This document shows, piece after piece, positions 20,795 through 51,337 of a DNA stretch of 60,098 nt. A model generated the notes under the pieces. That model saw only the letters and a list, made by a program, of their open reading frames with translations, ran no database searches and was not told the DNA's origin. Position 1 is the stretch's first letter. Each line of letters begins with the position of its first letter. Where the stretch lies: contig PUPD01000227.1 of the NCBI GenBank assembly GCA_003552985.1, positions 1 through 60,098 on the forward strand, written 5' to 3'. The translations under genes were made by a program, and so were the position numbers. This stretch comes from Spirochaetaceae bacterium. Lineage in GTDB: Bacteria > Spirochaetota > Spirochaetia > DSM-27196 > SLAA01.

Positions 20795-22195
20795 TCAAAC
20801 CCGGATAGTTTGGTCAACACCACACCGCAGAGATTCGTTTACTGCGGCAGGTGGCAAGGCAATCTCATCGATAACGTGTCCCGCCGGCCCGCCTGAAAGC
20901 CTCACGCCGTTGATACGAGCCCACACCAACAGGGAAACGCCTTGAGTTCCCGCTGTCGTGGTGGCGGGATTGCCACGTGTCACGGTAAGAAATCGAACGT
21001 GGCGTGCACTCATGCGCTCGCATTGGGATAGTGGGGCTCGACACGCCGCTTCTTGGTCGGCAGTCTCCGCATCCTGCAACGGTGACGGCAGATCAGGACC
21101 TCGGAATCTCGGCTCCACAGCGTCAATGAAGCCGTCGCTTATGCCAAACTCGACCTCCCAGTCCTGCCGTTTACCGCGTGCGCCCCAGCCTACCTCGAGG
21201 TGAACAACGCTCTGCAGTTCCGACCCCAATGCATCGCTCCCCTGCAGTTCAGGAACCATATCCACCGGCGAAAACCGCCGTAACATGCGATCGCGCTGAA
21301 CGATATCCAGGTAATCAATCGCGGCTCCGCCCGTGACAACCGCCCGCAAACATTTAAACGGCCCGGGCGATCGAATACCCCCCATTGGGGTTCCGTCGAG
21401 CTCGAAGTCCACCTCCAACTTGTTACCGGTCAGGGCGAATGTGCGTCGGGCAGCGATCGCGTCCCACAGCGCGTCGCGTTTGCACGTCGTCGCCCACACT
21501 CCGGTCATACCTTGGCCGTAGCTTCCGGGATGAGCACTATGGTGGTCCGTATTGGCGCAAAACCCGAAGACATGCCCGCGCGCGAGGCCGTACTGTACGG
21601 TACTCATGCAGTCGGCCGGTCCCATAGAATGGAGGTACGGCACCGGACCCTCGCTGGTCTCGGATGCACCGTGCATTGAATATACCTCAACTACCGGCGA
21701 CACCTGTTCGTCGAAACTGTCCCAATTGATTCCGCGCAAGCCTTTTCGATACCCGATATGGTGTGGCAGCGCGGTTGCATTGTGCCCCGTCTGGTTCCAG
21801 CGTCTCAGCTGCGCATGCAGCTGTTCGACCGTTGCCGGGTAAATCAATTCGCCTTCAAGGTGTTTGTAGACAATCGCCCGATCACCGTCGGCCGAAGAGT
21901 GGATCTCAAAACTTGGGAACGCGACGAATTGCCCCGGCGAATCAACATCTCGCAAAGCCCGCAGGAGATCCTGCCATCTATGCCGTAGCCTCCGAAAACC
22001 TCGCCGGTGAAAATCGATAATGTGACCAATACGCTCGTTCGCCACGGGCATATCACACCAATCGGCGTGTCCGGTAACCGAGCAAAAATCTAGTCTTTGG
22101 CGGGCGTTATGAACTGCATCGGCAACGGTTCCCTGTCCGTACGAGACGCTACAGTGATTGTGGATATCACCGTAGTACGCGTTCTGATCAAGTAT
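20795..22195 (-). CDS. PHP-domain / DUF3604-like metal-dependent hydrolase; start codon uncertain (first in-frame ATG at 22051 is inside the domain)
   Basis: In-frame upstream extension reads IL-DQNAYYGDIHNHCSVSYGQGTVADAVHNARQRLDFCSVTGHADWCDMPVANER; HNH and GHADW metal motifs; in-frame stop at 22214-22216. Confidence 0.75.
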   Translation of the reverse strand: MLDQNAYYGDIHNHCSVSYGQGTVADAVHNARQRLDFCSVTGHADWCDMPVANERIGHIIDFHRRGFRRLRHRWQDLLRALRDVDSPGQFVAFPSFEIHSSADGDRAIVYKHLEGELIYPATVEQLHAQLRRWNQTGHNATALPHHIGYRKGLRGINWDSFDEQVSPVVEVYSMHGASETSEGPVPYLHSMGPADCMSTVQYGLARGHVFGFCANTDHHSAHPGSYGQGMTGVWATTCKRDALWDAIAARRTFALTGNKLEVDFELDGTPMGGIRSPGPFKCLRAVVTGGAAIDYLDIVQRDRMLRRFSPVDMVPELQGSDALGSELQSVVHLEVGWGARGKRQDWEVEFGISDGFIDAVEPRFRGPDLPSPLQDAETADQEAACRAPLSQCERMSARHVRFLTVTRGNPATTTAGTQGVSLLVWARINGVRLSGGPAGHVIDEIALPPAAVNESLRCGVDQTIRV

Positions 22196-22285
22196 TACGT
22201 CCCTGCCCCCTTTTCATCGGGCCGCAACCCAACAGCCACGGACCTAATACCGGCCAACCGGTACAAGGCGTTGCCCTTTGACTGT

Positions 22286-23569
22286 TCAGGCCGAAGAGCC
22301 GCGTTCAGACGCGCCGAGGATGCGCTCGAGCCCTTCCGAACTGCGAATAAGCGCCCGTGCGACATGGAACGCTGTCTTCCACTCACCACCCTTGTCGGTG
22401 GTTACAGGCCGGAAAGAGGCAGGGTCAACCTCCGAATACCAGTCACCGTGATCGTGATCGATTTGAAAAGCCCGGATCCAGTTCCACTCCGTCAGGACAG
22501 CTTCGACATACCTGTCTTCGGAAGTCAGCTCAATCATATCTACCAGAGCGTTCAACAGCTCGGCCTGCGTCCACCAGCTGCGGACCATCCGGTCGTCTGC
22601 AAGGTTTGACGCATGCTCTACTCGGCCGGCCATGGGACCATAACTCGCCAAGCCCCCGTTGTTGGGGTCGAAACCGTACTCCAAGGCGTGGTCAACCAGT
22701 CTTTGAACCGGGCCGCCGTAATGGTTCCACGATACGTGCAGCAATTGTCCAGCTTTAATCAGCAACCATGCTAACTCGACGTTCAGCCCATACGATGTTG
22801 TAAACCTACCCTGCGAATCGGGGACTGCATTCCACTGCGAATCGAACGCGGTCACGGTGCCTCCGTGGTTGGGATCAAGACCTTTTGACAAGATCAGGTT
22901 GAAGACCTTGCGCAACGCAGCGAGGTGCCGGTCATCCCCGGAGACCTCCGACAGATACGCGATTCCTTCGAGGACGTTCGTATGCATGTCAATGGTTTTG
23001 ATCGCTCCGTTCTCACTCAAATGCATTTGCTCGGCGTTTAGGACCGGCCAATCTTGTCCGTCAAAATCCTCCCTGTAGCCCATCTCGCCGTCGGCCGCTT
23101 CGATCTGAAGCAATTCAAAAAGCCCTCCGGCCGTCTCCAATACATCCGGCCGTCCCGAGCTGTCAGCGTACGCCGACAATCCAGTGAGGGCATACGCATG
23201 CACGTCGGTGTTCTTCCGTCGCGACAGCGGTTTGCCGTCGCGCGTCACTGTGAAGTAGTACCCGCCGTTTTCCTGATCACGGAAACACGTCTCAATGAAC
23301 TCGAAGGTTGCAGCTGCGAGATCGAGATAGCCTCTATCGTTCAGTCCAAAGTCGTGTGCCCAGGACAGCGCCGCAAGCATGCGAACCTGCATCATAAGAT
23401 ACTTCGGAGCAGTCTCCAATCGGCGTCCGAGTCGATCCACACGTGTCAAGAACCCGCCGTGATCGGCATCCCAGGCGTGCTCCGCCCAAAAAGGCATCAC
23501 ACTGTCCGCCAGGTTCGCCCTTGCCTCCCTGCGACACTGCTCCAACGCTGCGCTTCTGCTGTGATCCAT
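22286..23569 (-). CDS. AGE (N-acylglucosamine 2-epimerase) family protein
   Basis: FWAEHAWDADHGGFLTRVDRLGR, QVRMLAALSWAHDFG, FFxVTRDGKPLSRRK; (alpha/alpha)6 barrel motifs. Confidence 0.85.
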   Translation of the reverse strand: MDHSRSAALEQCRREARANLADSVMPFWAEHAWDADHGGFLTRVDRLGRRLETAPKYLMMQVRMLAALSWAHDFGLNDRGYLDLAAATFEFIETCFRDQENGGYYFTVTRDGKPLSRRKNTDVHAYALTGLSAYADSSGRPDVLETAGGLFELLQIEAADGEMGYREDFDGQDWPVLNAEQMHLSENGAIKTIDMHTNVLEGIAYLSEVSGDDRHLAALRKVFNLILSKGLDPNHGGTVTAFDSQWNAVPDSQGRFTTSYGLNVELAWLLIKAGQLLHVSWNHYGGPVQRLVDHALEYGFDPNNGGLASYGPMAGRVEHASNLADDRMVRSWWTQAELLNALVDMIELTSEDRYVEAVLTEWNWIRAFQIDHDHGDWYSEVDPASFRPVTTDKGGEWKTAFHVARALIRSSEGLERILGASERGSSA

Positions 23570-23604: not shown

Positions 23605-24849
23605 TCAATGCCGACCATCTGCAGGGGGAACGCCATTGTCACGGTGGCGTCGCATCTCTTCCAGCAGTTGGTAGCAATACAACTGCATGCGGGGCAGATG
23701 GAAAGGCCCCTTCCAGAGATTGCCTTTCAGTGGTGTCGAGAGGCGCCCGTCGCGGTGAAAATACCCGAACCATTCGCCGTACTCATCGTCCGGGAACAGT
23801 GAGTACGTCCAATCGTGAATCTGCTCGTGCATTCGTTGATACTTGGGGTCATCGGTCAGGAAATAAGCCAGTAGCGTCGCGATAATCGTCTCGTTCTGCG
23901 GCCACCAAAACTTCATATCGTGATGGTACTCGGTACACGGCCGATTCGTGACGTCCCGGAAATAGATTATCCCTCCATATTCCTGATCCCATCCCAAGTC
24001 CCAGGCCCAATCGAGCATTTTGCAGCCAAGCGCGATCAGCCGCGCGTCACCGCCTCGCAGCCGTGCTTCGTGGAGAATGAACCATGCAACTTCGATTACG
24101 TGCCCGGGGGTTACAAGCCTGCCGTCGAAGTGGTCCAGGTACTCTCCGTTGCTGCCCACATGCTCAAGTACGATACCCTCATCTTCACGCACGAACTCGG
24201 TGGCAACTTCGGCTATTGCGTCGTCTATCCAGGCATCGCAGGATGAATCGGGCCGCGCCAGACGGAGCACCTGTGCGATATTGATCCTCAGCATGCACGA
24301 CCCGAGCGACTTCATCGGCCGCGTCGAGGCGTCGACCTTTGGCGACAGCCGCGTTGGGTTATTGGAATAATCCAGAATGAACCGCATCAGATCAAAGGCT
24401 CGGTCTATTTTCGCCTCATCACCGGCGGCCCTCCCGTAGGCAGCAAACGCCGACACCGCAAATCCTTCGGTCGCCAGATACCGTCGCTTGCGCAGCGGTT
24501 TTCCCTCTCGCGTAACCTGAAAGAACATTTTGCCGTCGTCGTCGAACCCAAAGCGTTCGATGAACTCCAACCCATGTTTCGCGGCGTCAAGCCATTCACG
24601 GCGGGGCTCGACCTCCGCATAGAGAGTTGACAACAGCCAAACGAAGCGCGATTGGATCCACATGCCTTTGTCGGTGTCAAGAACAGACCCATCACGATCA
24701 AGGCAGAACAAGAATCCCCCGGCTTCCCTATCCACGCTATGACGCAGCCAGAACGGAACGGTATCCTCCAAGAGACCGCTTCGGTATACCCGGAGAAGCT
24801 CTTCCATGCGGGCCGTTGTCAAGGCCTGGTAGCGTGCGTCGTTTCTCAT
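23605..24849 (-). CDS. AGE (N-acylglucosamine 2-epimerase) family protein, second copy
   Basis: WLRHSVDREAGGFLFCLDRDGSVLDTDKGMWIQSRFVWLLSTLY; FFQVTREGKPLRKRRYLATEGFAVSAFAAYGRA. Confidence 0.9.
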   Translation of the reverse strand: MRNDARYQALTTARMEELLRVYRSGLLEDTVPFWLRHSVDREAGGFLFCLDRDGSVLDTDKGMWIQSRFVWLLSTLYAEVEPRREWLDAAKHGLEFIERFGFDDDGKMFFQVTREGKPLRKRRYLATEGFAVSAFAAYGRAAGDEAKIDRAFDLMRFILDYSNNPTRLSPKVDASTRPMKSLGSCMLRINIAQVLRLARPDSSCDAWIDDAIAEVATEFVREDEGIVLEHVGSNGEYLDHFDGRLVTPGHVIEVAWFILHEARLRGGDARLIALGCKMLDWAWDLGWDQEYGGIIYFRDVTNRPCTEYHHDMKFWWPQNETIIATLLAYFLTDDPKYQRMHEQIHDWTYSLFPDDEYGEWFGYFHRDGRLSTPLKGNLWKGPFHLPRMQLYCYQLLEEMRRHRDNGVPPADGRH

Positions 24850-24940: not shown

Positions 24941-25786
24941 TTATCCCTTTACGGCCCCCGCGGTCATTCCCTGGATGATCGTTCGCTGCGCAACGAAAAT
25001 GAAGATCATCGTCGGTATACTCGCCATCGTAATCGCAGCCGCCATAGGTCCCCAGGCGACAGCGTAGGATGTAATAAAGAACGAGGTCCCTACGGGAGCA
25101 GTGATCACCCGGCGGAAGCTAAGCACTACCGCAAATATGAACTCGTTCCAACTCAGGATAAAGCCCAGAATCGCAACCGCCGCGATTCCCGGTTTGATCG
25201 TCGGTATAAGAATGCGAAACAGCAACTGCGGAGTGGTAGCGCCATCGACGATTGCCGCTTCCTCGAGCTCTTTCGGCAACTCCTGAACGAACCCTACCAG
25301 CAACAGCAAAGCCGTCGGCGAAATGAAAAGCGTATGCATCAGTATTATCGCGAGGTGCGTGTCGATAAGGTTGAAGCGGCTGAAAACCACGTACACTGGA
25401 ATGGCAAAGCTTAACGCCGGCATCAAGCGCACAAGCAAGGTAGTACCAAGGACGAAATCACCGAGCCCCCGGTATCGAACAATGCTGTACGCAGCCGGTA
25501 CGGTAATAAACAATGCTGCAGCCACTGAGCCCAACGCAATCACCAGACTGTTATACAGATAGACGCCGAAATTATACCCCCCGGTTGCTATCGCTACGAG
25601 ATAGTTGACCATTGTGGGCTCGAATATCCATTTCGGCGGCGAGACCGAGATATCGGCCGGCGTCATAAACGAGGTTCGTATGTTGGTTATGATCCCGATC
25701 AGGAAGACCAGAATGACGATGAGAACCGTTAGTGCGGTCAATCCGGCCCCGATTCGCCGGCGTGTAGACTTGGTCATGTTGATCAT
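24941..25786 (-). CDS. Carbohydrate ABC transporter permease (MalG-like)
   Basis: EAAIVDGATTPQLLFRILIPTIKPGIAAVAILGFILSWNEF (EAA loop); multiple TM segments; ATGA overlap with next permease. Confidence 0.92.
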   Translation of the reverse strand: MINMTKSTRRRIGAGLTALTVLIVILVFLIGIITNIRTSFMTPADISVSPPKWIFEPTMVNYLVAIATGGYNFGVYLYNSLVIALGSVAAALFITVPAAYSIVRYRGLGDFVLGTTLLVRLMPALSFAIPVYVVFSRFNLIDTHLAIILMHTLFISPTALLLLVGFVQELPKELEEAAIVDGATTPQLLFRILIPTIKPGIAAVAILGFILSWNEFIFAVVLSFRRVITAPVGTSFFITSYAVAWGPMAAAITMASIPTMIFIFVAQRTIIQGMTAGAVKG

Positions 25787-26655
25787 CGCACCCCCCTGAT
25801 CATCCGTCTCACGAGCAGGAGCGCCGGTATCAGCAGCATCAAGGCGATAAGGAATGAAGCAGCATTCGCCACACCGAAATCACTGCGCTCGAACGCCCGG
25901 CGATACACAAAAATACTGACGCTCTGCGTAAACGTGCCGGGCCCACCTCCTGTGAGGGCGAAAACCATCTCAAAGATCACGAAGTTCTGCAGCAGACGCT
26001 CAGCAAAGGTTATACCGAGAATCGGAAAAATCGACGGCAAGGTGACGTTACGCCACCGCTGCCAGACACTGCAGCCGTCCACCGTAGCGGCTTCCAGCGT
26101 GTCTCGATTCACTCCCTGCATTGCCGAGTATGCATTCAGGAACACCATCGGGGTTCTGTTCACGACGTTCGCCCAGACCAAGGTATAGAAGACAAACCGC
26201 ATTCCGAGCAGTGCCGTCGTTCCCGTTATGCCACTCAGCAGATACGACACCGGCCCGACAGCCTCGTGAAACAACAAACGGAACATCGTTCCCATCAGCA
26301 CCGGCGAAATCATCAAAGGCAACATGTAGAGCGTTATGGCAAGCCCTTTCGCCGGAAACCGGCGGTTGTAAAGAGTTGCAACGCTGACGCCGATTAGCAT
26401 TTCCACAGCCACTGAGCTCAGCGCAAAACCCAGACTCCATCTGAGCGCGTACCGAAACCCGCTCGACTCGAGTATCAATAGGTAATTGTCAAACCCTACC
26501 CAACTCGGCCGATGCAAGGTAGCCAGCCTGGCATGATGCAGGCTCAGCCAAGCACCGTAGAGCATCGGAACGAGTGAAAACGCCAATAACCATAGAATCA
26601 GGGGCATAAGCAGGAGTATTGAAACCCGCCGACGATGCCTGCTTAAGTCCTGCAT
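25783..26655 (-). CDS. Carbohydrate ABC transporter permease (MalF-like)
   Basis: LEAATVDGCSVWQRWRNVTLPSIFPILGITFAERLL; start trimmed to MQDLSRHRRRV preceded by a GAGGTG Shine-Dalgarno. Confidence 0.9.
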   Translation of the reverse strand: MQDLSRHRRRVSILLLMPLILWLLAFSLVPMLYGAWLSLHHARLATLHRPSWVGFDNYLLILESSGFRYALRWSLGFALSSVAVEMLIGVSVATLYNRRFPAKGLAITLYMLPLMISPVLMGTMFRLLFHEAVGPVSYLLSGITGTTALLGMRFVFYTLVWANVVNRTPMVFLNAYSAMQGVNRDTLEAATVDGCSVWQRWRNVTLPSIFPILGITFAERLLQNFVIFEMVFALTGGGPGTFTQSVSIFVYRRAFERSDFGVANAASFLIALMLLIPALLLVRRMIRGVR

Positions 26656-27016
26656 TTCAAATAACACCTCGCTGTTCTTGGGGGATTCTGGAGTTCCCGT
26701 GGGATCAAAGGCCTGCAATGCGCACCACCGCGCATGCTGCATGCAAGGCCACCGCACCGCCTAGGGAACACGTTAAGTATACCACAATTTCTGATGCTGC
26801 GACTCAGCTACTTACGGCGGATCACCGTTCAATCCGCAATCCGGTCCGGGGCCGAGCTGAGGTCTCAGCGGTAAGCCCGTTTGCGCAATGATCTGAGCCT
26901 GCCTTCACTGGCGAGGATCACCCCCGTGCGAGGCAGGCCCAGACGATCTTGAACGTCAGCACGCCTTCACGCCGGCTCCGGGCAGCACGGCGTTCAAGCG
27001 GGATGCGGCATCGTGC

Positions 27017-28432
27017 TTAGTCAGCAGCCAACTCTCCTGCTTCGATATCGGCCATCACCTGATCTATTTCCCGCTGGGCTTCCCTTTGCAGACCCGAAAG
27101 CGCGGTATCAAAGTCGACACTACCGGTCCAGGCATCCGAAAGATACTCCGCAGCCATCACCTCGATTGCGCCGGTTTGCGGCGGCAAGGCCCGGCCATAG
27201 CGTCCGAGCACGCCGGCCATGACGTCAAAGTCAGGACGAAGGTCGGTCAGCCCGGCCAATATGTCTTCGACCGGAGGTATACCACCCGCTTCGCCATAGA
27301 TCTGGTTCGCTTCGTCGGTGAAGAGCCAGGTCAAGAATATCGCGGTTTGCTCCTTGTGGCGTGAGTTCGGATTGAGCGCATAACCGAGCGAGTGGTTGTA
27401 GCTGAAGCGGCCTTCCGGACCAGCCGGCGGCGCAACAATACCGAACTTGCCCTGCATCGGTGAGTCCTCGGTTTCGATAACGGTCGAGTAAGCAGCGTTC
27501 CAATGGACGCCCATCGCAACCTGACCGGCGAGCATCGCCTCGTTAGCTTCCGGATACTCCCCTGTGACAGACCCGGGAGGAGTGAGCCCCTGGTCGAACT
27601 TGGTATGCCAGATGCGCAATGCTTCGCGCGCCGCGTCGGTGTCAAACACGACGTTCCCGTCGTCATCATACCAATCACCACCGTAACCCCAATACGCGTT
27701 GGTCCACAGGAAACCGGTGGGCCCCATCACCCGTCCGTGCGTAAATGTTCCGTACTCAGTTGGGGAGTCCGGGTTGTACTCTTGCGTAAAGAAGTAAGCT
27801 GCGGCCAAATAGTCATCCCAGGTCCAATCATCAGGATCCTTGGGGTCAAGCGCTTCACCGACATACTCTGCGCTGATCTCCCGATACAGCTCCTGCCACT
27901 CCTCGTTCTCAAGCAGTTCTTCAATGAGGTCCCGGCGATAGTACAGGTAATGAACGCTTACATCGCGCGGGACACCCATCAGTTGGTCGCGATAATAGTA
28001 AGGCGACATAACGCCGCTCATAAAGTTGTCCGGAGAGGCGCCCCACGGGTTAGTTTCAGGATTCTCGATATACTCATCGAGCGGCTCCAAGAACGGCAGA
28101 TAGCGGCCGTAACGCACACTTCCTATCTGAAACACATCAACTTCGGAGCTCCCGGCGGCCATGATCGCTTCCTGCCTCAGATGCATTTGATCACGTCCGA
28201 ACAGGACCACCGACACGTAGATGCCTTTTTCAGGGCCGATCTCACTGTTCCAATGGTTGGCAACGGATTCAAACGCATCGGATTCGGGTCCGGGCCACAG
28301 GATGATCTGGACGGTCACATCACCGTCCACCTCCTCTGCGGCACCACGCGCAAACAGCGCAGCCACTGCAAAGACCGAAACCATCACAACGACGCCGGCA
28401 ATTAGCAGGCGACGCAATCGGTATCTTTTCAT
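27017..28432 (-). CDS. Extracellular sugar-binding protein of ABC transporter
   Basis: Signal peptide MKRYRLRRLLIAGVVVMVSVFAVAALFARGAAEE; SBP_bac_1-like body; precedes permeases. Confidence 0.88.
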   Translation of the reverse strand: MKRYRLRRLLIAGVVVMVSVFAVAALFARGAAEEVDGDVTVQIILWPGPESDAFESVANHWNSEIGPEKGIYVSVVLFGRDQMHLRQEAIMAAGSSEVDVFQIGSVRYGRYLPFLEPLDEYIENPETNPWGASPDNFMSGVMSPYYYRDQLMGVPRDVSVHYLYYRRDLIEELLENEEWQELYREISAEYVGEALDPKDPDDWTWDDYLAAAYFFTQEYNPDSPTEYGTFTHGRVMGPTGFLWTNAYWGYGGDWYDDDGNVVFDTDAAREALRIWHTKFDQGLTPPGSVTGEYPEANEAMLAGQVAMGVHWNAAYSTVIETEDSPMQGKFGIVAPPAGPEGRFSYNHSLGYALNPNSRHKEQTAIFLTWLFTDEANQIYGEAGGIPPVEDILAGLTDLRPDFDVMAGVLGRYGRALPPQTGAIEVMAAEYLSDAWTGSVDFDTALSGLQREAQREIDQVMADIEAGELAAD

Positions 28433-28695: not shown

Positions 28696-28836
28696 TGTGA
28701 TTTCGGCAAATGGCCGGCGCATCATTTTGTAAGAGCTCCAACCACCCACGAATTGGGTTGCACATCGCGAGATCGCGTGACATTATCATCGATGCAGTGT
28801 TACAGATCACCACGATGCAGTGTACAGCGGAGTGAT

Positions 28837-30969
28837 ATGACGGTAAAGACGCCCCTCGAACGCCTCGGGTACGGGTTCATCCCGGAACAGTACTTACCCC
28901 CAGGCCGAGATGAGTATTATCTACGGAATGAACAGTCGAACGGCGTACGGTACCGCGATCTCACCACTGCCGAGATCGCCCGGCTTGAAGCGAACGGCAA
29001 CCGTGCCGTCCACTGGGGAGACGTGAAGGTTGAGGACGGGTTTGACCCCGATCTGATACAGGGCAGCCGGTTCTACGGATTGGTCCGAATTCGAAGCCTC
29101 GGGCAGTACTATCTTACTTTTCACGACCTAAAGGCGCCGGTCGGTATCTATGACAGCACGATCATCTCTTCCGACATCGGCGCCGACACTTCAATCACGA
29201 AGGTCGGATACCTGTCTCATTACATCATCCGCGACCGGACGGTTATCGCGCAGGTGGACGAGATTGCCTGCACCAATCATAGCAAGTTCGGCAATGGAAC
29301 CTTGAAAGAAGGGGAGCCCGAAGACGTCCGCATATGGATTGAGCTAGGCAACGAAAACGGCGGCCGCAAGGTACTTCCGTTCAACGGCATGACATCAGCC
29401 GACGCTTACCTATGGTACAAATACCGCGACGATGAAACCCTCATGCAACGCTTTAAGGCGATGACAGAGCGGGAACTCGATCCGCGACGTGGCTACTACG
29501 GCGTAATCGGCAGCGGTTCCGTGATTAAGAGCTGTAGGATAATCAAAGACGTCTTCATCGGTGACAGCGCGTACATCAAGGGCGCGAACAAGCTCAAGAA
29601 TCTTACGATCAACAGCAACCCCAAGGAGCCCACTCAGATCGGTGAAGGGGTGGAACTGGTCAATGGCATTATTGAAGCAGGATCTCGAGTCTTTTATGGG
29701 GTCAAAGCGGTGCGGTTCTATCTGGCTGCTCACGCTTCACTGAAGTACGGCGCACGGCTCCTTAACTCTTATCTAGGAGAGAACTCCACCATTTCATGCT
29801 GCGAGGTGTTGAATTCCTTGATTTTCCCGGCGCATGAGCAACACCACAACAACTCCTTTCTCTGTGCCGCCGCGGTGCTCGGCCAGTCTAACCTCGCTGC
29901 GGGGGCCACGCTCGGCTCAAACCACAACTCGCGTAGCAATGACGGCGAAGTGCTGGCAGGCCGAGGCTTTTGGCCCGGGCTATGTGTCAGCATCAAACAC
30001 AATTGCAGGTTCGCATCTTTTTCGTTGCTCACCAAAGCCGATTATCCGTCAGAGATGCTGATACCTCTGCCATTTGCACTCGTTTCGCGCGACGAGACCG
30101 AGAACCGCCTCCTTATTCTTCCGGCTTACTGGTTTCGGCACAACATGTATGCGCTCGCCCGAAACGCCTGGAAGTTCAAAGCCCGTGATAAGCGAGTGGT
30201 CCGCAAGCTCCTGATTGAGACTGATTATCTTGCACCGGATACAGCTGAGGAAATGTTCGCGGCCTTGGAGTTTCTCGAACAACACATTGGAACTAAGCGT
30301 CTACATTCAGCGGAAGGCGATGAACCGTTCACGCTGCCGGCAGGGCTGCTCGAACGGTCTAACCAATCGCCGCTACTGCTGAAGGCACGGACCGGATACG
30401 AAACGTACCGAAAGATGATACATCTGTACGCGATGAAGTCACTGGTGATCTGGGCCGGCGAGACCGGCAGAGAGTTGCCGGAGATTCCGGCTGAGCTCCG
30501 GGATGCAACGCGTGATTCGTGGGTCAACCTGGGCGGTCAGATGGTTCCCAGCGCACGTGTTGCTCGGTTGCGCGAAGACGTAAAGGAAGGCGTTCTTGCA
30601 ACCTGGGAAGCGCTCCACCAGCGGTATGAGGAGCTCGCAGGGCTGTACTCCATCGACAGAGCGCGACATGCTTTTGCATCGCTCTGCGCTTTGCATGACA
30701 CCTCACCCGAGACTCTCGCTCCCGGCGAGCTGGTCGGTCACCTGCGAGACGCCATACAGTTCAATCGTGAATTGGTAGCCGGGGTTCGCGAGAGCCGCGC
30801 CAAAGACTACACTGAGCCGTTTCGCGCAATCACGTATGATTCTCCGGAAGAGATGGCTGAGGTGATCGGCACGCTCGAAAGCAACGAGTTCATTCGCCAC
30901 GCCGAAGCCGCGGCGCGGGATTTCGAGCGGGAGGCAGGCCGGGTATGCCCGGATTTCGTCTCGCCATAA
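28837..30969 (+). CDS. DUF4954-like protein with left-handed beta-helix (hexapeptide) region
   Basis: MTVKTPLERLGYGFIPEQYLPPGRDEYYLRN; repeats IGSGSVIKSCRIIKDVFIGDSAYIKGANKLKNLTI...IGEGVELVNGIIEAGSRVFYGVKAVRF; start trimmed to ATG after GGAG. Confidence 0.7.
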   Translation: MTVKTPLERLGYGFIPEQYLPPGRDEYYLRNEQSNGVRYRDLTTAEIARLEANGNRAVHWGDVKVEDGFDPDLIQGSRFYGLVRIRSLGQYYLTFHDLKAPVGIYDSTIISSDIGADTSITKVGYLSHYIIRDRTVIAQVDEIACTNHSKFGNGTLKEGEPEDVRIWIELGNENGGRKVLPFNGMTSADAYLWYKYRDDETLMQRFKAMTERELDPRRGYYGVIGSGSVIKSCRIIKDVFIGDSAYIKGANKLKNLTINSNPKEPTQIGEGVELVNGIIEAGSRVFYGVKAVRFYLAAHASLKYGARLLNSYLGENSTISCCEVLNSLIFPAHEQHHNNSFLCAAAVLGQSNLAAGATLGSNHNSRSNDGEVLAGRGFWPGLCVSIKHNCRFASFSLLTKADYPSEMLIPLPFALVSRDETENRLLILPAYWFRHNMYALARNAWKFKARDKRVVRKLLIETDYLAPDTAEEMFAALEFLEQHIGTKRLHSAEGDEPFTLPAGLLERSNQSPLLLKARTGYETYRKMIHLYAMKSLVIWAGETGRELPEIPAELRDATRDSWVNLGGQMVPSARVARLREDVKEGVLATWEALHQRYEELAGLYSIDRARHAFASLCALHDTSPETLAPGELVGHLRDAIQFNRELVAGVRESRAKDYTEPFRAITYDSPEEMAEVIGTLESNEFIRHAEAAARDFEREAGRVCPDFVSP

Positions 30970-31050
30970 CGCCGGTGCTTGGCTGTCCGCATGAGTCCCA
31001 ACGCCGATTGAGCCGTTGTGCAGCGTAGGGATCCTAACTATGATCGATTC

Positions 31051-33307: not shown

Positions 33308-33465
33308 TCACCCCCACGCGTATTGCCTGTAGCAAAATAAGATGAAACCTGATCCTGGATCGTACACTTCAAGGAGAAACTCACGCAACACCTCGGCGAT
33401 GCGAGTGCTGATGGCCACAGAGCCATGCAGGACCGGAGTTTCGGCTATCCACTGTGCAGCAAAGA

Positions 33466-33494
33466 TTGCTTTAACTATTAGTATAATGTATAAT
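33466..33494 (+). promoter_or_regulatory. Candidate sigma70 promoter upstream of the second PIG-L gene
   Basis: TTGCTT - 17 nt - TATAAT (a second TATAAT lies at 33482-33487). Confidence 0.7.
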
Positions 33495-39280: not shown

Positions 39281-39300
39281 GGTTCCACACCCTCCCTGAC

Positions 39301-40251: not shown

Positions 40252-40422
40252 CGCTTAAACCGTTTTAGTTGCGCAAAGCAGTTCTCTTATCAACGCCGCC
40301 AACGGAACGCTGTCGGTATCGCAACCTACAGGGCAGTTGCTTAGAAACCGGCGCAGGACAGCGACCTGCCGTCCCGCGTCCGATTCCGGTAACCGTAGTT
40401 AAGCTTAGGCGTTATGACAGCG

Positions 40423-42913: not shown

Positions 42914-44187
42914 CCTCGTTCTCTTTGCCGGAGCTCTTTCTTGTTGTCGATCACCTTACGCACCGCCTCGGCGATCTGCTCCATATCCTCGGATGATCCC
43001 ATCAGAACCCGGTGTGTCAGCGCTACCGATGTGTGGTGAAACGCCTGCTGCGATTCCGGCAGCTCAAAGCGGGCAGGATTGAGTGCATCCCAGTACTCGT
43101 CGTTCAATCGATGCCGCTTCTTGGTCTGCGGGCGATAGAGCATACAATCGTTTAACGGCTGATAGCATGCATTCACGCCGATACCGAGCTCGGCGCTCAA
43201 CGCCTGGCGAAACAAACTCACCGAAATGCCGAGCTCCTTTTCGTCGATACGGAACGCGTAATTGAAGTAGCTTTTCTTCGTCTCACGCGGGTCGTCCTTC
43301 ATTGGGTGACAGCCGGGAACCGCGCTGAGCAGTGAATCGAGGTAGCGACCGTTGGTCTCGCGCGTACGGTTCAACGACTCCAACCGAGTGAGCTGCCCGA
43401 GGAGGACCGCCGCCTGAAACTCGGTGATCCGGTAGTTGCCGCTTTGAATCAGGTCACCTTCTTCTCCGTAATCCCCCGAGCTCTTATCTGTTTCGGTATT
43501 CTCCGGGCGCCGCCCGCAATTGCGCAGAGCGTCCAACCGGTACCAGAGCTCGTAGTCATTGGTGGTAACCGCGCCGCCTTCGCCCGCCGTCATGATCTTG
43601 GAAAGCTGCATACTGAAGCTGCCGATGTCACCCAGCCCTCCGACCCTTATCCCGTTCCACTCCGCCCCGTGTTTGTGCGCGGCGTCCTCAATGACGTGTA
43701 GGCCGTGTCGTCGGGCAATCTCGACAATCGCATCCATATCGGCAATGTTGCCGTACAGATGCACCGGGATCACGGCTCGAGTACGCGAGGTTATCGCCGC
43801 CTCGAACGATTGCGGGCTCATGCACCACGTATCCGGCTCAACATCAACCAGCACCGGCACCGCGTTTACGTCCGCCACCGCGGCTGCAGTCGCCTGCCAA
43901 GTGATCCCCGGAACGATCACCTCATCACCGAAACCGATGTCGAGCGCCTCAAGCGCAAGCTGCATGCTGACCGTCCCGTTCGCCACCAGCAGCGCGTGCT
44001 TCACACCCAGGTACTCCTGGAAGCGTCTGAGAAACTCCTGCTCCTTAGGTCCGTTATACGACCAAACCCCGCTCTCCAGCACCTCAAGCAGCCCAGTTCG
44101 TTCTTCGTCGCCCCACATCGGCCAGGCGGGCCAGGGGCTGTTTTGGACATCGCGGACAGGCGTCCCTCCGTTGATTGCGAGCACCAT
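42910..44187 (-). CDS. DegT/DnrJ/EryC1/StrS PLP aminotransferase (AHBA synthase / scyllo-inosose aminotransferase-like)
   Basis: NGGTPVRD; VIEDAAHKHGAEWNG; GDIGSFSMQLSKIMTAGEGGAVTTND (PLP-lysine region); start trimmed. Confidence 0.9.
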   Translation of the reverse strand: MVLAINGGTPVRDVQNSPWPAWPMWGDEERTGLLEVLESGVWSYNGPKEQEFLRRFQEYLGVKHALLVANGTVSMQLALEALDIGFGDEVIVPGITWQATAAAVADVNAVPVLVDVEPDTWCMSPQSFEAAITSRTRAVIPVHLYGNIADMDAIVEIARRHGLHVIEDAAHKHGAEWNGIRVGGLGDIGSFSMQLSKIMTAGEGGAVTTNDYELWYRLDALRNCGRRPENTETDKSSGDYGEEGDLIQSGNYRITEFQAAVLLGQLTRLESLNRTRETNGRYLDSLLSAVPGCHPMKDDPRETKKSYFNYAFRIDEKELGISVSLFRQALSAELGIGVNACYQPLNDCMLYRPQTKKRHRLNDEYWDALNPARFELPESQQAFHHTSVALTHRVLMGSSEDMEQIAEAVRKVIDNKKELRQRERG

Positions 44188-44258
44188 ACTTCCCTCCACT
44201 CGATTCGTTCGTCTCGTCAAACCTCATCATACAAGCGCCTCTGAGGCGCAAGCTCGTC

Positions 44259-45266
44259 TTACCTCGTAAGCTCCCGGAACGCGCTCACGAGCTTTTCGGC
44301 ATCCGGCGCATGATAGTCTATCGCCGAATACCACAGGCGAGCGTCACGGACGAAATCGCCCAGCGTCTCCAACGCTTTACGGAACTCGTGGTGTTCAAGG
44401 CCTATCGCTTCCGGGCGGTATTCAACACCCGCCTGGTCCAGCGTCTGCTTGATGGTTTCGGGGGCGTTGTCCTGATGGAGCGACATCACGAGAATTCCGA
44501 GCGCAACAAGCTCGCCGTGAACGAAGTGTCTGCGGGTGATTCGCTCGACGTTGTAGGCGAAGAAATGCTCAGACCCTTCTTCCATCCGCGCCGAACCCCA
44601 GCTCAACGTCAGATCATTGATCGCGCAGAAGCCCTCGATCATCGCGCGAATTCCGACCGGACTCACCTCCCGGATTTCGCCTGCTTGCGCGCTGCAGCAC
44701 TCCATCACTTCCTTCGCGATTCTGCTCACGCGCTCATCACGCACGTCCTGTTCCTGCTCCTCGGCCAGGCGCCAGTCGAACTGTGCGGTGTGGCAGCTCA
44801 AGACGTCGGAGATACCAGCACGGTTGAGCCGCGCCGGCGCGGCCCGCACGATCGGGTCAGAGACGATCACCTCCTTGGGCGCACAGCTACCGATATACTT
44901 CACGATGCTATGCGTCCGCACCGCGATCGCCGGTGTGACCATTGCGTCCACCGACGCGATCGTGGGAATCGCGGTCACGGGAAGCTCGTACGCCCATCCG
45001 AGGTACTTCGCGGCGTCAATCGAAGAGCCGCCGCCGATACCGACGATGCGCCGGGTTCCCGGCGGCAGGCTGAGCGCTCTCAGATACCCGATTCCCATCT
45101 CGCTGATATAGTGAAGCTGCAGGGGCGTTACTCTGATCACGCCCTGGACGAGCTCCCACGGCTCTTCCATCGTGCAAACCACGGCGCTGGGCCACTCGAT
45201 GTGAGCTACATCGTCCTCGAGATTCTCACTGTACCGCACTGACTCTGCCGTTGTTCCGATCATCAC
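44259..45266 (-). CDS. Glycerol-1-phosphate dehydrogenase-like / DHQ synthase-iron alcohol dehydrogenase superfamily protein
   Basis: VGIGGGSSIDAAKYLGW; PTIASVDAMVTP; GSEHFFAYNVERITRRHFVHGELVALGILVM. Confidence 0.8.
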   Translation of the reverse strand: MMIGTTAESVRYSENLEDDVAHIEWPSAVVCTMEEPWELVQGVIRVTPLQLHYISEMGIGYLRALSLPPGTRRIVGIGGGSSIDAAKYLGWAYELPVTAIPTIASVDAMVTPAIAVRTHSIVKYIGSCAPKEVIVSDPIVRAAPARLNRAGISDVLSCHTAQFDWRLAEEQEQDVRDERVSRIAKEVMECCSAQAGEIREVSPVGIRAMIEGFCAINDLTLSWGSARMEEGSEHFFAYNVERITRRHFVHGELVALGILVMSLHQDNAPETIKQTLDQAGVEYRPEAIGLEHHEFRKALETLGDFVRDARLWYSAIDYHAPDAEKLVSAFRELTR

Positions 45267-45375: not shown

Positions 45376-46644
45376 CTACTCATTAGCAACACCGCACCAC
45401 CGTGCCGCGGCGACGGCCAAAACTTTGGCACAGGTTACGACCTGCTCGAACTCTACATATTCGTCCGTGCTGTGGATCATTCCACCTTTCGGCCCGAACA
45501 CCATCGCCGGCGTATCGCCGTACAGGACCGGCAACCTCAGATCGCACCCTCCCCCGCCCACGGTTCTCAGATCCCTGCCGGTAAGCTCCCGACTCACGCC
45601 TCTCATTGTGGTTACAAACGGATGGCCCGGGTCGATCTCGGCAGCCTCGAACCACAGCCCGAACCATTCCACTGTGGGCGGGTTGTGTTTCAGCCATGGA
45701 TCCTTGGAGGACCACTCCATCAGAAACCGCTTAAACCCCTCTTTCACGACGTGAATATCCTCGCCCGGCAGGCACTCGATGGTGCCCTCCATGACGCACC
45801 GGGACGGGACCGTGGAAGGCCACTCACCACCCCTGATGGTGCAGATCCCGAGCGGAGCCTTGGTGACGCCGTACTCGTCGTAAAGCGGGTGACGAGCTAC
45901 GGACTCGCGCATGATCGAATACTCCTCGATCGCCCGAAAAACCTCCATCGCTTTTCCGATAGGGTTCACCAGCTCATGCTTGTACTCCGTTCCGCCCTCC
46001 TGCCCCGGGACAGTGATGCGAAAATACTGAGCTCCGCGACTCGACACCGCCGCCTTGTCCAGGCCGGTCGGCTCGGTGAAGTTACACGCATCGGCACGGT
46101 AGCCCCTGATAACACAAGCCAGCGTCCCGTTTCCGCCGCTCTCCTCATCGACCACGCTCTCCAGTATCAGATCGCCGCGCAGCCTCACCCCGGCTCGCAT
46201 TAGCGCCTTGAGTGCACTGATATTGGCGACGCATCCGCCTTTCATGTCGGCGGCTCCGCGTCCGTATACTCGCCCGTCAACGAACTCCGCACCCCACGGA
46301 TCGAAGCTCCAGGCGGTTTGAGTCCCGGTCGGCACTACGTCGACATGCCCGTTGAGGATCAACGACCGTCCCCCGCCGGTTCCACGGGAAACCGCCACTA
46401 CGTTCGGCCTGTTCCGATAGTCGAGCTCCACCGGCACGTACGCTGGGTGTGCCCGAAGCTCTTCATCCGGAGGGTCCCAGACGTCGAGATCCAGATCCAT
46501 GCTTCGCAGCTCACGTTCCACAATCGCCTGTACGTCCGCCTCGTCGGGGTGCAGAGACGGCGTGCGAACTAGTTCCTGCAGGAGCGCCAGCATTTCGTCC
46601 CGTTGCGCTTCGACTGCCGCCAGCACGCGTAACTGCCATTCCAT
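45376..46644 (-). CDS. M20-family amidohydrolase (ArgE/DapE/ACY1-like deacetylase)
   Basis: LILNGHVDVVPTG; YGRGAADMKGGCVANI; ESVVDEESGGNGT; start trimmed to ATG after the PIG-L stop (TGAGATG). Confidence 0.92.
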   Translation of the reverse strand: MEWQLRVLAAVEAQRDEMLALLQELVRTPSLHPDEADVQAIVERELRSMDLDLDVWDPPDEELRAHPAYVPVELDYRNRPNVVAVSRGTGGGRSLILNGHVDVVPTGTQTAWSFDPWGAEFVDGRVYGRGAADMKGGCVANISALKALMRAGVRLRGDLILESVVDEESGGNGTLACVIRGYRADACNFTEPTGLDKAAVSSRGAQYFRITVPGQEGGTEYKHELVNPIGKAMEVFRAIEEYSIMRESVARHPLYDEYGVTKAPLGICTIRGGEWPSTVPSRCVMEGTIECLPGEDIHVVKEGFKRFLMEWSSKDPWLKHNPPTVEWFGLWFEAAEIDPGHPFVTTMRGVSRELTGRDLRTVGGGGCDLRLPVLYGDTPAMVFGPKGGMIHSTDEYVEFEQVVTCAKVLAVAAARWCGVANE

Positions 46645-46645
46645 C

Positions 46646-47452
46646 TCAGTTGTCCACTGCTGCATGCTCGAACCAGTCATCCAATGCCCCGAAGCGCAAC
46701 ACACGAAAGGGCTCGGCTGCCGTAACGCCGCAGAGACCGCCGCTTCGGTGTCCCTGTTCACGGATGATCCGAGCGATAACGGGTTCATAATCGCCTTGGT
46801 GGGCCTGCTCGATCTCAGGGACGCTTCGGCCCCAGGTCTTTGTCTGCAGCCACAACTGATGCACGATGTGCGTCATCATCAGTTGATGAGCACAGGCCGC
46901 ACGAATCTTGGTCTCAACGAGATCTGAAATGTCTTCGTAGCGGTTCACTTCAAGCAAGCGACGCGCGAAGTACCAGCGCTCGCAAACTGCGTGCGGTTCC
47001 AATCCCGACTCGAGGTGCTCGGGATGGTGTTTGTCGAACATTGCGGTCCAGAACGCCTCGTCTACCGCCTGCGCGATACGTACGTGGTCCTGATTGTTCT
47101 CATACAGGACTCCATACGGATCAAACGAGAATACCGCGTAGGGCCGGTGCTCGCGATAGAGCCGGATAAACCGCTCGCGAAGCTCGACCTCCGATACCTC
47201 GGCCAGGCAGTCCGAGGGGTAACCAAGCTCGACGATCTCGGAAACCCCGAGAATACGGGCCGCCTCGGCAAACTCAGCCGCGTTACGCTCGATCGTCTCT
47301 TCAACGCCCAGCGCCACCGAGTCCTTGTCGTCGATCGTCACTCTGACGACCACCACGTTCCACCCCTCGCGCGCACGCTTTGCGAGCGTGCCGCCGCAGA
47401 ATAACGCCGCATCGTCGGCGTGCGGCGCAATCATCATCAACGTTCTGCTCAT
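46646..47452 (-). CDS. PIG-L / LmbE family deacetylase (third copy)
   Basis: TLMMIAPHADDAALFCGGTLAKRAREG; HPEHLESGL; LYENNQDHVRIAQ. Confidence 0.85.
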   Translation of the reverse strand: MSRTLMMIAPHADDAALFCGGTLAKRAREGWNVVVVRVTIDDKDSVALGVEETIERNAAEFAEAARILGVSEIVELGYPSDCLAEVSEVELRERFIRLYREHRPYAVFSFDPYGVLYENNQDHVRIAQAVDEAFWTAMFDKHHPEHLESGLEPHAVCERWYFARRLLEVNRYEDISDLVETKIRAACAHQLMMTHIVHQLWLQTKTWGRSVPEIEQAHQGDYEPVIARIIREQGHRSGGLCGVTAAEPFRVLRFGALDDWFEHAAVDN

Positions 47453-47470: not shown

Positions 47471-48958
47471 CTAAGCACGCAAAACCGGCGCACTGCAGAT
47501 CTCCTCAGCGGTATCAAGTAAAATCTCGGTTGCTTCCGGAGCCAGGTCGTTCGCTATGGTCTCGTACTTTCCCCACCAGTCGCGTTCCCCAAACTGCGTG
47601 GGGTGCGGCAGATACTGAAAATGACTGTTGGCATACCCGATCACGAATCCGAGGTCAGAGGAACAGCGACGCTGCCAATCTCGGCCCACGGCAACCAAGG
47701 GCTCGCCCGGCAATGCGACGAACCGGAACTCACCGAGTTGCATAACCTGAACCGGAACCAGGTGCTTCTGTGCCGCATCGCGCTCGCAACGCGAGCGTAT
47801 CAAACGGTACCGACAGACTGCAGCCATGAGCCGGCACATCTCCGATTCGGGTAACCTTCGCCTGATTACGACCTCCGAAGCTCGCGCCCAGAGCGCGGTA
47901 CTCTCCAGGTGGGCATCTGCGGTCGTCACACCGGTCTCCGCACCGAGGAACTCCATGATGACCGTCGCCTCGTGCGTCAGCTGCTCCTGGAGCTCATCCG
48001 CAGACCAGCCACTTCGGCTCGCGTCGCCGGAATGCGCACGCGCCCGCAGTGCGGCCCCGGAGCCCAAATAGGCGTCGGCGATCCGGCACTCTCGCTGGAC
48101 GCACCGAGGCTGCGAATCAGTTACCGGAGAGGCGTCCGCGATGACCCGGATAACCTCTGCGGCCAGCCGGCCTCCAAGATCGGCCGCTTCGTCATGCAGA
48201 ACGTCGGCATACCCACGCGGGTCGAGCGCATCGGCGTTTGGGCGACTCCGCGGTATTACGTCCCCGGAAGCTACGTTGACAAACAAGGCGACCGTTCCCG
48301 GGAATGCCCGCTCCACTGCCGACTGAGCGTGACCCGGGTAGTCGGCGCTGATCGCCATGTTGCGCCATCCGAGCGTCACGGGATGGCAGGCGCATCCGAA
48401 TACCACCGCGACCGGCAGGGACGAATGCCGTTCCACAATCTGAAGAACCGGGATTCGGTGATCCACGTCGTTCGGCCTTCCGCGGGTCCGGCGGTTACGC
48501 ATAAGCTCCGCTTTTCCAACACCGGCATGTAGCCGAGCCGGGCGCGCGGTTTGCACAGCCTTCAGTCCGGTCCGGACCACCGCCTCCGTCAGCCCGTTCA
48601 AGTACCGGCGATGCCGCTCATCGCGCGGCCTGAGGTCCGGTCCTGAATGAGTATGCGACGCTGCGATGCAGATCGCCTCACTGGAAACCGCAGCTTGGCT
48701 TGCGAGCCTCTGCTTAATCGCGCGAGCCAACGAGCCGGGTACATGGATAAGATCAAGGCCGATCAATAACAGGCTGCCGCGGGGGCCTCCGAGATACACC
48801 GCTTTTGCGCTGAGGGGATCAAGCACACCGCTGCTCGGCGAGGTCCGCTGTCCGAAACCACCCATGTATAACTCTTCTCGCGGAGTGATGTCCGTCCAAG
48901 CGCTCCCGGCAACGAGCTCTGCCCGACCCGCCATGCTCGCCATACTATAGATCCCCAC
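47471..48958 (-). CDS. Neutral/alkaline ceramidase-like protein (second copy)
   Basis: AGSAWTDITPREELYMGGFGQR; IAASHTHSGPDLRP; FGCACHPVTLGWRN; NVASGDVIPRS. Confidence 0.78.
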   Translation of the reverse strand: MGIYSMASMAGRAELVAGSAWTDITPREELYMGGFGQRTSPSSGVLDPLSAKAVYLGGPRGSLLLIGLDLIHVPGSLARAIKQRLASQAAVSSEAICIAASHTHSGPDLRPRDERHRRYLNGLTEAVVRTGLKAVQTARPARLHAGVGKAELMRNRRTRGRPNDVDHRIPVLQIVERHSSLPVAVVFGCACHPVTLGWRNMAISADYPGHAQSAVERAFPGTVALFVNVASGDVIPRSRPNADALDPRGYADVLHDEAADLGGRLAAEVIRVIADASPVTDSQPRCVQRECRIADAYLGSGAALRARAHSGDASRSGWSADELQEQLTHEATVIMEFLGAETGVTTADAHLESTALWARASEVVIRRRLPESEMCRLMAAVCRYRLIRSRCERDAAQKHLVPVQVMQLGEFRFVALPGEPLVAVGRDWQRRCSSDLGFVIGYANSHFQYLPHPTQFGERDWWGKYETIANDLAPEATEILLDTAEEICSAPVLRA

Positions 48959-49080: not shown

Positions 49081-50322
49081 ATGGTGCAACGAATGCAGCG
49101 GGCAAACATGCTAATCGGCCAGTCCGGCGGACCCACCACGGTCATCAACGCCAGTCTGGCGGCTGTGGTGGAGCACGCGCGCCGGTCGGAGCTTGTCGAC
49201 CGCGTCTACGGTATGCGCTTCGGAATCGAAGGACTTCTGAGCGGGCACCTTATTGACCTCACCGGGTTGTCGACCGAGCGCCTTACGCGCCTGGCACGAA
49301 CTCCGTCGTCGGCTCTCGGCTCTTCGCGACACAAATTGAGCGATGACGAGCTGCCGCAACTCCTTGAGCAGTTGCGTAGTTTCAACGTCCGGTACCTGCT
49401 CATGATCGGTGGGAACGACACCATGGAGACCATACAGCGCGTAGAACAGTACTGCGCCGAAGAGCACTACCCGATTCATGGGGTCGGCATCCCCAAAACC
49501 GTCGATAACGACCTGTTCGGAACCGATCACACCCCGGGGTTTCCCTCAGCGGCGCGTTATCTCGCGCTCTCCGCACTCCAGGGCGGGTGCCTCGCCCGCG
49601 ATATGCGGCGCGTAGATCAATACCTGATCCTGCAAACCGTCGGACGCGACGCCGGTTGGCTCCCGGCCGCCACCGCCGCCGCCCGGCAACGGGAAGGTGA
49701 TGCTCCCCATCTGATCTACGTGCCGGAAGTGCCGATGAACCGGGATGCGTTCCTCCGGGACGCAACTGATTGCATCGATCGTCACGGTTGGGTATCAATA
49801 GTCTGTGGCGAGGGGGTTGCCTGGGACGACGGTACGCCGGTCTCAGCCAGCGCAACACTCGACCGTTTCTCGAACATCGAGTACGGCGCAATGGGCGGAA
49901 CCGGGGCTGCGCTGCATCTGCATCGGATTCTCGCAGAGCACACCGGCTTGCGCGGCGAATTCCAGATTCCGGAGTCCTTGCCGATGTGCGCCGCCGATCG
50001 AACCAGCGAGATCGACCGCAAAGAAGCGGCCGCCTGCGGCCGTGAGGCTGCTCGCCTCGCGCTCTCCGGCGCCTCCGGCATTATGGTTGGAATGAAACGT
50101 CGATCCGGCAGCTATGCTGTGGACTACATTACCGTGCCGTTGCAGGAGGTCGCTCGGCGGACTAAACCGATGCCGCCCGAGTATCTCGCCGGAGATAAGC
50201 GAGACGTCTCACCGGAGTTCCTCGCGTATCTGCGCCCGCTCATCGGCCCGCTGCCCGAGCACGAATCTCTCGACGACCTCGAACGGTCGTGGGCAGAGGC
50301 AGCCCGCAAAACCGACAGATAG
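49081..50322 (+). CDS. 6-phosphofructokinase family, probably PPi-dependent type
   Basis: GQSGGPTTVINASLAAVV; MIGGNDTMETI; GVGIPKTVDNDLFGTDHTPGF. Confidence 0.88.
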   Translation: MVQRMQRANMLIGQSGGPTTVINASLAAVVEHARRSELVDRVYGMRFGIEGLLSGHLIDLTGLSTERLTRLARTPSSALGSSRHKLSDDELPQLLEQLRSFNVRYLLMIGGNDTMETIQRVEQYCAEEHYPIHGVGIPKTVDNDLFGTDHTPGFPSAARYLALSALQGGCLARDMRRVDQYLILQTVGRDAGWLPAATAAARQREGDAPHLIYVPEVPMNRDAFLRDATDCIDRHGWVSIVCGEGVAWDDGTPVSASATLDRFSNIEYGAMGGTGAALHLHRILAEHTGLRGEFQIPESLPMCAADRTSEIDRKEAAACGREAARLALSGASGIMVGMKRRSGSYAVDYITVPLQEVARRTKPMPPEYLAGDKRDVSPEFLAYLRPLIGPLPEHESLDDLERSWAEAARKTDR

Positions 50323-50332
50323 GAGCATGAGC

Positions 50333-51337
50333 ATGAATCTACAGTCCGAACAGTACCGGCGCTTCAAGCTGGTTCGTGAAATGGAGCAAACCGGAAACGT
50401 CATCTCCGGGCTGAGCCGTGACCAAATCGAGCATACCCCGGTACGCTATCCGAAGATCCTTTTGACCGGCGAGGGTTCTTCGCGCATATTCCCCGGCAAG
50501 CATGCGGTCAACGACGCGCACCGCTTTGGGTATCACGATCAGGTCTTCACCGAGACCGCCGCGAACAGCGCCGATCTCGACCACACCGGCGAGAGCCTGT
50601 TCGTCGCGTCCAACTCCGGCCGCACCGCCGAATGCGTACGCCTGATCCGGCAGCTTGAAGAGCGCTCCGACACACACACGGTCGGACTAACGACGAATCC
50701 GGACTCTCCCGTCGCGACCGAGTGCGACGCACACTACATACTCACCTGTGGAAAAGAGGAGGCGGTTGCAGCGACCAAGACCGTCGTGGAGCAGGCGTTG
50801 TTCCACGACATTCTGTTGCGCTCGCGCAACGGCCGGACACCTGTGGAGCTCCGCGCCCTTGCCGAAGCGTTTCGCGACACGTTGGCCGCCACGGTACCCG
50901 AATCCGTGCTCAGGCCGCTCGCGGGCGCATCGCTCGTCTACTTCACCGGGCGCAACGACGGGGTTGCCGAGGAACTGACGCTCAAAACCAACGAGATTAC
51001 GCGTAAGAAGGCTGACTTCCTGGAAGGAACCTACGCCGTTCACGGCATCGAAGAGGTCATGGACCCTGGCGAGGCGGTGGTGCTGATTGACCCGCCTGCA
51101 AACGAGGAGCAGAAGTTCAAGGAGGTGTTACGGGAGGGTGTAGGTGTGTCGGTCATTGCAATCAGCACGCGAGACACCGCGTTCCCCACCTTCCGGATTG
51201 CCGATGCGGGCGAGCTCCAGCCGTACCTCCTGCTCGCCGCCGGCTGGAACCTGCTGGTTGAGCTCGGACTTCAGCTGGAGGTAGATCTCGACAAACCCCA
51301 GCGGGCGCGCAAGGTGGGCAATGAGTTTGTAGGGTGA
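50333..51337 (+). CDS. SIS-domain sugar-phosphate isomerase/deaminase (GlmS isomerase-domain-like)
   Basis: LLTGEGSSRIFPGK; FVASNSGRTAECVRLI; CGKEEAVAATKTVVEQALF; start placed after AGGAG at 50321. Confidence 0.87.
   Translation: MNLQSEQYRRFKLVREMEQTGNVISGLSRDQIEHTPVRYPKILLTGEGSSRIFPGKHAVNDAHRFGYHDQVFTETAANSADLDHTGESLFVASNSGRTAECVRLIRQLEERSDTHTVGLTTNPDSPVATECDAHYILTCGKEEAVAATKTVVEQALFHDILLRSRNGRTPVELRALAEAFRDTLAATVPESVLRPLAGASLVYFTGRNDGVAEELTLKTNEITRKKADFLEGTYAVHGIEEVMDPGEAVVLIDPPANEEQKFKEVLREGVGVSVIAISTRDTAFPTFRIADAGELQPYLLLAAGWNLLVELGLQLEVDLDKPQRARKVGNEFVG

Follow-up and report, generated by a model that had tools for sequence, protein, structure and literature searches.

An island beside a tRNA gene

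The window analysed here is an entire 60,098-base contig of a Spirochaetaceae bacterium, PUPD01000227.1, from a draft genome of 305 contigs (3.9 Mb, 91.5% complete). It carries an inserted island whose minus-strand core recurs in Asgard archaea and may serve the breakdown of an N-acylated aminocyclitol. DNA homology to congeneric genomes ends near position 20821, just past tRNA-Thr, and restarts near 51449; on the left it spans a region of ribosomal-protein, tRNA-Trp and tRNA-Thr genes. The tRNA-Thr(ggt) gene lies at 20700-20772 on the minus strand, and the left edge of the insertion is just upstream of it. In three congeners (G001, G002 and G004) the two flanks adjoin each other; on contig C116 of G001, the left match stops at 8781 and the right match starts at 8874. 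The flank arrangement in two sister-genus genomes (G006 and G007) agrees with this empty site. A chimeric assembly can be discounted because the right side returns to the same locus. The ~30-kb block (20822-51448) is a true insertion beside a tRNA gene, missing from close relatives. Its GC content is 58.4%, against 58.0% for the left flank, and neither an integrase nor attachment or terminal repeats were found at its ends within the window.

An earlier note, made from the sequence alone, had called this region an accessory island, correctly, and every gene on its list is present: two ABC importers, two AGE-family epimerases, a sulfatase, three PIG-L deacetylases, an M20 deacylase, two ceramidase-like (Cer) proteins, a trio of Gfo/Idh, DegT and glycerol-1-phosphate dehydrogenase-like (G1PDH-like) proteins, two ROK regulators, a phosphofructokinase and a SIS-domain protein. 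No importer ATPase lies within the island. Its open reading frames also include no polysaccharide lyase or unsaturated glucuronyl hydrolase, such as a glycosaminoglycan utilisation locus should contain. The mixture of strands and the duplication of the ROK regulators suggest that the island comprises at least two modules, a left half and a minus-strand core at 37.1-49.0 kb.

Genes of the core module

The core comprises ten consecutive genes on the minus strand, from CerA at its start to CerB at its end. CerA (47471-48958) encodes a ceramidase-fold hydrolase; a sigma-70-like site stands upstream of it at 49029-49001, a kind of match that is no evidence on its own. There follow PIG-L #3 (46646-47452), an M20 protein of the ArgE/DapE deacylase family (45376-46788, with a true start probably near 46640), the G1PDH-like member of the iron-dependent dehydrogenase family (44259-45266), which was hidden under a longer, spurious plus-strand frame, a DegT aminotransferase (42910-44220) and a Gfo/Idh/MocA oxidoreductase (41882-42913). 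Importer B (38408-41748) consists of two CUT1-type permeases of the BPD_transp_1 family and a solute-binding protein, and CerB (37076-38395), a second ceramidase-fold hydrolase, closes the run.

The two Cer proteins are 27% identical to each other. One scores 51.6 bits against the Pfam family Ceramidase_alk (cut-off 32.1) and the other 31.6, just under. The predicted structure of CerA (mean pLDDT 77) matches the neutral ceramidase fold with an E value of 1.3e-26. Alignment to 2zws and 4wgk shows that the HTHSGP motif, a second histidine, a glutamate and a tyrosine are conserved (H102/H104, H192, E419 and Y449), residues that we take to bind the metal. The proteins thus resemble neutral ceramidase (PF04734; 2zxc, 4wgk) in fold and metal-site motifs, but they are only 440-495 residues long, lack the C-terminal domain and the signal peptide, lie in sugar clusters, and reach 31.2 bits where the ceramidase equivalog cut-off is 1200. 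They are presumed to cleave amides. Both solute-binding proteins of the island have a hydrophobic N-terminus, whereas, by hydropathy, neither Cer protein, none of the PIG-L proteins and not the sulfatase has one. On this ground the Cer, PIG-L and sulfatase hydrolases are most likely cytosolic and would act on imported, soluble molecules.

The best matches of the DegT protein in the PDB (5w70, 5w71 and 2c7t) are all 2-deoxy-scyllo-inosose aminotransferases, followed by AHBA synthase; it scores 331 and 293 bits to the former group, compared with at most 213 bits for other DegT proteins. The G1PDH-like protein is nearest to glycerol-1-phosphate dehydrogenase in both sequence and predicted fold (mean pLDDT 77), and belongs to a subfamily that Asgard archaea share. 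The possibility that it is a 2-deoxy-scyllo-inosose synthase was ruled out by the family scores and the fold.

The core recurs in Asgard archaea

Whole-genome searches covered the window's phylum (395 genomes) and the Asgard archaea (197 genomes). The G1PDH-like protein was absent from four congeners and had no match above ~97 bits among the 395 genomes of its own phylum. A scan of the genome collection with this protein returned a single contig, in part because single-sequence patterns reach just close relatives. On a Lokiarchaeon contig, a G1PDH-like protein 36% identical to that of the window, with the same CTMEEPWE motif, is encoded beside a 656-residue protein in which a ceramidase-fold and a PIG-L domain are fused. 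The PIG-L half of this fusion is 38% identical to PIG-L #3, and in the window CerA and PIG-L #3 are adjacent, in the same order as the domains of the fusion.

Three Asgard loci (L092, L094 and L209) combine a symporter (MFS_2/GPH; GPH-like by family score), the Cer-PIG-L fusion and G1PDH-like, Gfo and DegT genes, and four others (L096, L097, L210 and L213) retain the symporter, the fusion and the G1PDH-like gene. In bacterium and archaea alike, the transporters that border the module suggest uptake. Across the 197 Asgard genomes, the G1PDH-like subfamily was found in 8 of 8 with the fusion and in 4 of 189 without it (p = 1e-11, indicative only, as the genomes are related). Phylogeny agrees: PIG-L #3 separates from PIG-L #1 and #2 and joins 11 fusion PIG-L domains (SH-aLRT 99), and the G1PDH-like protein joins the Asgard set (98). 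The Asgard DegT protein likewise scores first with 2-deoxy-scyllo-inosose aminotransferases, by a smaller margin (237 versus 204 bits). The core module, recurring as it does in Asgard archaea, is not a random collection of genes.

Two further Asgard loci, L206 (G526:C224) and L207 (G503:C20), have G1PDH-like genes that are split or interrupted by a stop, and close to them 65-residue Cer-PIG-L remnants with TAG codons inside; these copies are either decayed or affected by sequence errors.

Iol genes and related pathways

A described inositol pathway is encoded by the Thermotoga maritima operon TM0411-TM0416 (PMC5931981). Two observations connect the core with Thermotoga-type catabolism of myo-inositol (IolG, IolM, IolN and IolO; TM0412-TM0416), with which it would share keto-cyclitol chemistry. 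On the Lokiarchaeon contig L021, genes for IolM (501.6 bits, cut-off 450) and an IolO relative (234 bits, cut-off 300) are neighbours of the fusion and G1PDH-like genes. The genome from which the window comes encodes, on contig C49 (L091:3067-7478), IolG (441.8 bits, cut-off 355), IolM (503.4, cut-off 450), IolN (296.1, cut-off 245) and an IolO-like protein (145.7, cut-off 300). IolN was also present in 5 of the 8 Asgard genomes with the fusion, compared with 25 of the other 189 (p ~0.002, without correction for kinship). The Iol genes support, without proving, the drainage of a keto-cyclitol into a Thermotoga-type route. The island itself differs from that pathway in lacking IolM, IolN and IolO and in adding N-deacylases and a transaminase.

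Altogether, IolN exceeds its cut-off in 30 of the 197 Asgard genomes, and Thermotoga-type inositol catabolism may be common among them. The idea that the Cer-like proteins are the ring-opening hydrolase IolN was rejected, IolN being a separate creatininase-like family (NF041098).

Biosynthesis of 2-deoxystreptamine offers a second comparison, as it uses a PIG-L deacetylase and a DegT protein of the kind to which the island's is nearest; the island has no 2-deoxy-scyllo-inosose synthase or glycosyltransferase, and its importers make the opposite direction probable. In the catabolism of the rhizopine methyl-scyllo-inosamine, encoded by moc genes, an inosamine is taken up and broken down, and a Gfo/Idh protein takes part. 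The island shares a Gfo/Idh protein and an importer with it, and no further moc-like set was identified in a comparison made without the moc sequences.

Cer-like genes in other neighbourhoods

In the regions examined from the window's phylum, a DegT gene lay near the Cer-like gene at 4 of 10 loci and in none of 20 control regions. Pooled with Asgard regions, the counts were 6 DegT genes in 280 kb and 0 in 685 kb, which has a chance of ~6e-4 under random placement; the control regions were chosen arbitrarily rather than at random, and the genomes are related. One locus in the same phylum (L109:1437-4223) encodes, beside a DegT gene, a protein of 928 residues that joins an AGE (GlcNAc 2-epimerase) domain to a ceramidase-fold domain, and at another (L115) an AGE gene adjoins the Cer-like gene.

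Two haloarchaeal megaplasmid clusters unite genes for DegT, Cer-like, PIG-L, sulfatase and Gfo/Idh proteins with those for ABC importers. More widely, haloarchaeal megaplasmids (L036, L037 and L219-L221) carry large catabolic stretches with PIG-L, Cer-like, sulfatase, several Gfo/Idh, RidA, pyridoxal-phosphate aminotransferase and ABC importer genes. On Hyphomicrobiales plasmids, a Cer-like gene is accompanied by NagB-like, SIS and NagA-like genes and a CUT1 importer. Plasmid pHS1 of the insect-associated Sodalis praecaptivus (L039) has DegT, PIG-L, 2-deoxy-scyllo-inosose synthase and glycosyltransferase genes, an aminoglycoside-like biosynthetic cluster.

The left half and the right edge

Two genes of the island did not figure in the earlier note. 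The first encodes a DUF3604/CehA-McbA-like metallohydrolase (20795-22051, minus strand); its frame is open for ~54 codons upstream of the first ATG, GTG or TTG, to ~22213, and this stretch holds a DIHNH motif. The second encodes a DUF4954/DUF6819 protein (28753-30969, plus strand). Between them, on the minus strand, lie two AGE-family epimerase genes and importer A (24941-28432), which again comprises two CUT1-type permeases (BPD_transp_1) and a solute-binding protein. Both epimerases, the first at 22286-23569, belong to the GlcNAc_2-epimerase family. The second, AGE2 (23605-24849), resembles N-acyl-D-glucosamine 2-epimerase; it aligns over residues 11-400 with the characterised enzyme 8bry at 491 bits, a full-length similarity, and scores 364.8 against a very strict NCBIfam cut-off of 600. 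By these comparisons it is a clear relative of N-acylglucosamine 2-epimerase.

The sulfatase (31018-32397, plus strand) is followed by PIG-L #1 (32447-33307, minus strand), PIG-L #2 (33342-34382, plus strand, with an annotated start that is probably too early) and the plus-strand genes for ROK1 (34491-35663) and ROK2 (35832-36983), which are 54% identical. The nearest relatives of PIG-L #1, at ~50% identity, are PIG-L proteins from clusters on haloarchaeal megaplasmids, and such clusters also hold importers, RidA and class V aminotransferases. The left half, with its AGE, importer A, sulfatase, PIG-L #1 and #2 and ROK genes, is probably a neighbouring module for a sulfated N-acetylhexosamine that was acquired in the same block. 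At the opposite edge, the plus strand encodes a pyrophosphate (PPi)-type phosphofructokinase (49081-50322) and a protein resembling SIS-domain sugar isomerases or deaminases (50114-51337), whose true start lies inside the frame.

A candidate pathway and its rivals

We propose, with confidence evenly balanced for and against, that the core module serves the cytosolic catabolism of an N-acylated aminocyclitol, for example an N-acyl inosamine, or of a close amino-sugar analogue, with the left half as a neighbouring module. Importer B would take up the compound, presumably with a shared ATPase, since none is encoded in the island. CerA, CerB, PIG-L #3 and possibly the M20 protein could then strip acyl groups from nitrogen, and DegT, to judge by its closest relatives a transaminase and here working degradatively, would convert the freed amine to a ring ketone. 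The Gfo/Idh and G1PDH-like dehydrogenases may oxidise or reduce ring hydroxyls; the part given to the G1PDH-like protein is the weakest step. If the ketone is scyllo-inosose, the IolM, IolN and IolO families encoded on the other contig could open the ring. The fuller version of this scheme, in which bacteria and Asgard archaea share an undescribed pathway that deacylates an aminocyclitol with a Cer-fold hydrolase and PIG-L and feeds scyllo-inosose to IolM-IolN-IolO through a reversed DegT step, is more tentative and, as a whole, somewhat unlikely. A limited literature search returned nothing on the breakdown of aminocyclitols by such a set of genes, on ceramidase-like operons or on inositol catabolism in Asgard archaea.

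Several points weigh against aminocyclitol catabolism. IolM and IolO stand next to the module in one Lokiarchaeon only, with the Iol genes elsewhere in other genomes, and 3 of the 8 fusion genomes have no IolN above the cut-off. The island Gfo protein scores 149 bits against an IolG cut-off of 355, and the nearest structures of the G1PDH-like protein use glycerol phosphates, which the scheme leaves unexplained. Elsewhere in the phylum, the DegT proteins encoded near Cer-like genes are more remotely related (27-31% identity), and wide searching was confined to this phylum and to Asgard archaea. In the tree, the Cer half of the fusion is joined by neither CerA nor CerB, which gives no support to CerA as its ortholog. 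The Cer step would then be a functional parallel rather than an orthologous one, with a different Cer subfamily recruited to the pairing, unless the depth of the Cer tree puts it beyond resolution.

DegT and Gfo proteins are also paired in 3-amino-sugar, kanosamine-type chemistry, and an amino-hexose substrate remains a serious rival, to which we assign a modest probability. Here the substrate of the core would be an amino hexose, such as a kanosamine-like N-acylated 3-amino-3-deoxy sugar: deacylation would be followed by conversion to a 3-keto sugar by DegT and reduction to a plain sugar by Gfo/Idh. In keeping with this, the relatives of Gfo in the PDB are sugar oxidoreductases, the best family for the Asgard Gfo is UDP-GlcNAc 3-dehydrogenase (170 bits, below cut-off), Hyphomicrobiales plasmids combine Cer-fold genes with NagB-like, NagA-like and SIS genes, and a Cer-fold domain is in one case fused to an AGE domain. 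However, the affinity of DegT is to 2-deoxy-scyllo-inosose aminotransferases rather than to other sugar aminotransferases, and IolM and IolO adjoin the module in L021.

The island could instead be a chance accumulation of unrelated sugar genes at an insertion hotspot, as the two importers, two regulators, mixed strands, a left half without the same conserved neighbours and the non-orthology of CerA and CerB to the Asgard Cer domain might indicate. That PIG-L #3, G1PDH-like, DegT and Gfo genes occur together repeatedly, in two domains of life, makes this quite improbable. Least probable is a biosynthetic core that makes an aminocyclitol or amino sugar by forward DegT action, with PIG-L as in aminoglycoside assembly: DegT, PIG-L and an enzyme of the DHQS/Fe-ADH superfamily do recall 2-deoxystreptamine clusters, as does the Sodalis plasmid with its 2-deoxy-scyllo-inosose synthase, but the island has no glycosyltransferase, its Fe-ADH protein is G1PDH-like and not a cyclase, and importers and ROK regulators, or a sugar symporter in the Asgard loci, accompany the module.

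The aminocyclitol reading retains part of what the earlier note had envisaged. Its amino-sugar or aminocyclitol theme fits the nearest relatives of DegT, IolM and IolO in the Lokiarchaeon and the Iol genes in the same genome, and the check it set itself, co-occurrence of the neighbours, was borne out in Asgard archaea by PIG-L #3, G1PDH-like, DegT and Gfo. A single system across the whole 30 kb is not supported as stated, because the conserved core occupies 37-49 kb and a separate importer, AGE2, a sulfatase and a haloarchaeal-type PIG-L belong to the left half. The count of at least six amide hydrolases is based on the names of folds, does not describe one enzyme class, and includes Cer-fold proteins far from ceramidase by sequence. 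It had entertained glycosphingolipid headgroups as substrates; for cytosolic enzymes that lack a signal peptide, free glycosphingolipids are an unlikely choice.

If the core does act on N-acylated aminocyclitols or related amino sugars, it would represent a natural breakdown route for these compounds and a metabolic capability for Asgard archaea. It would also provide a function for many neutral ceramidase-like proteins in the sugar-uptake clusters of bacteria and haloarchaea, and the conserved pairing makes that function directly testable with purified enzymes.

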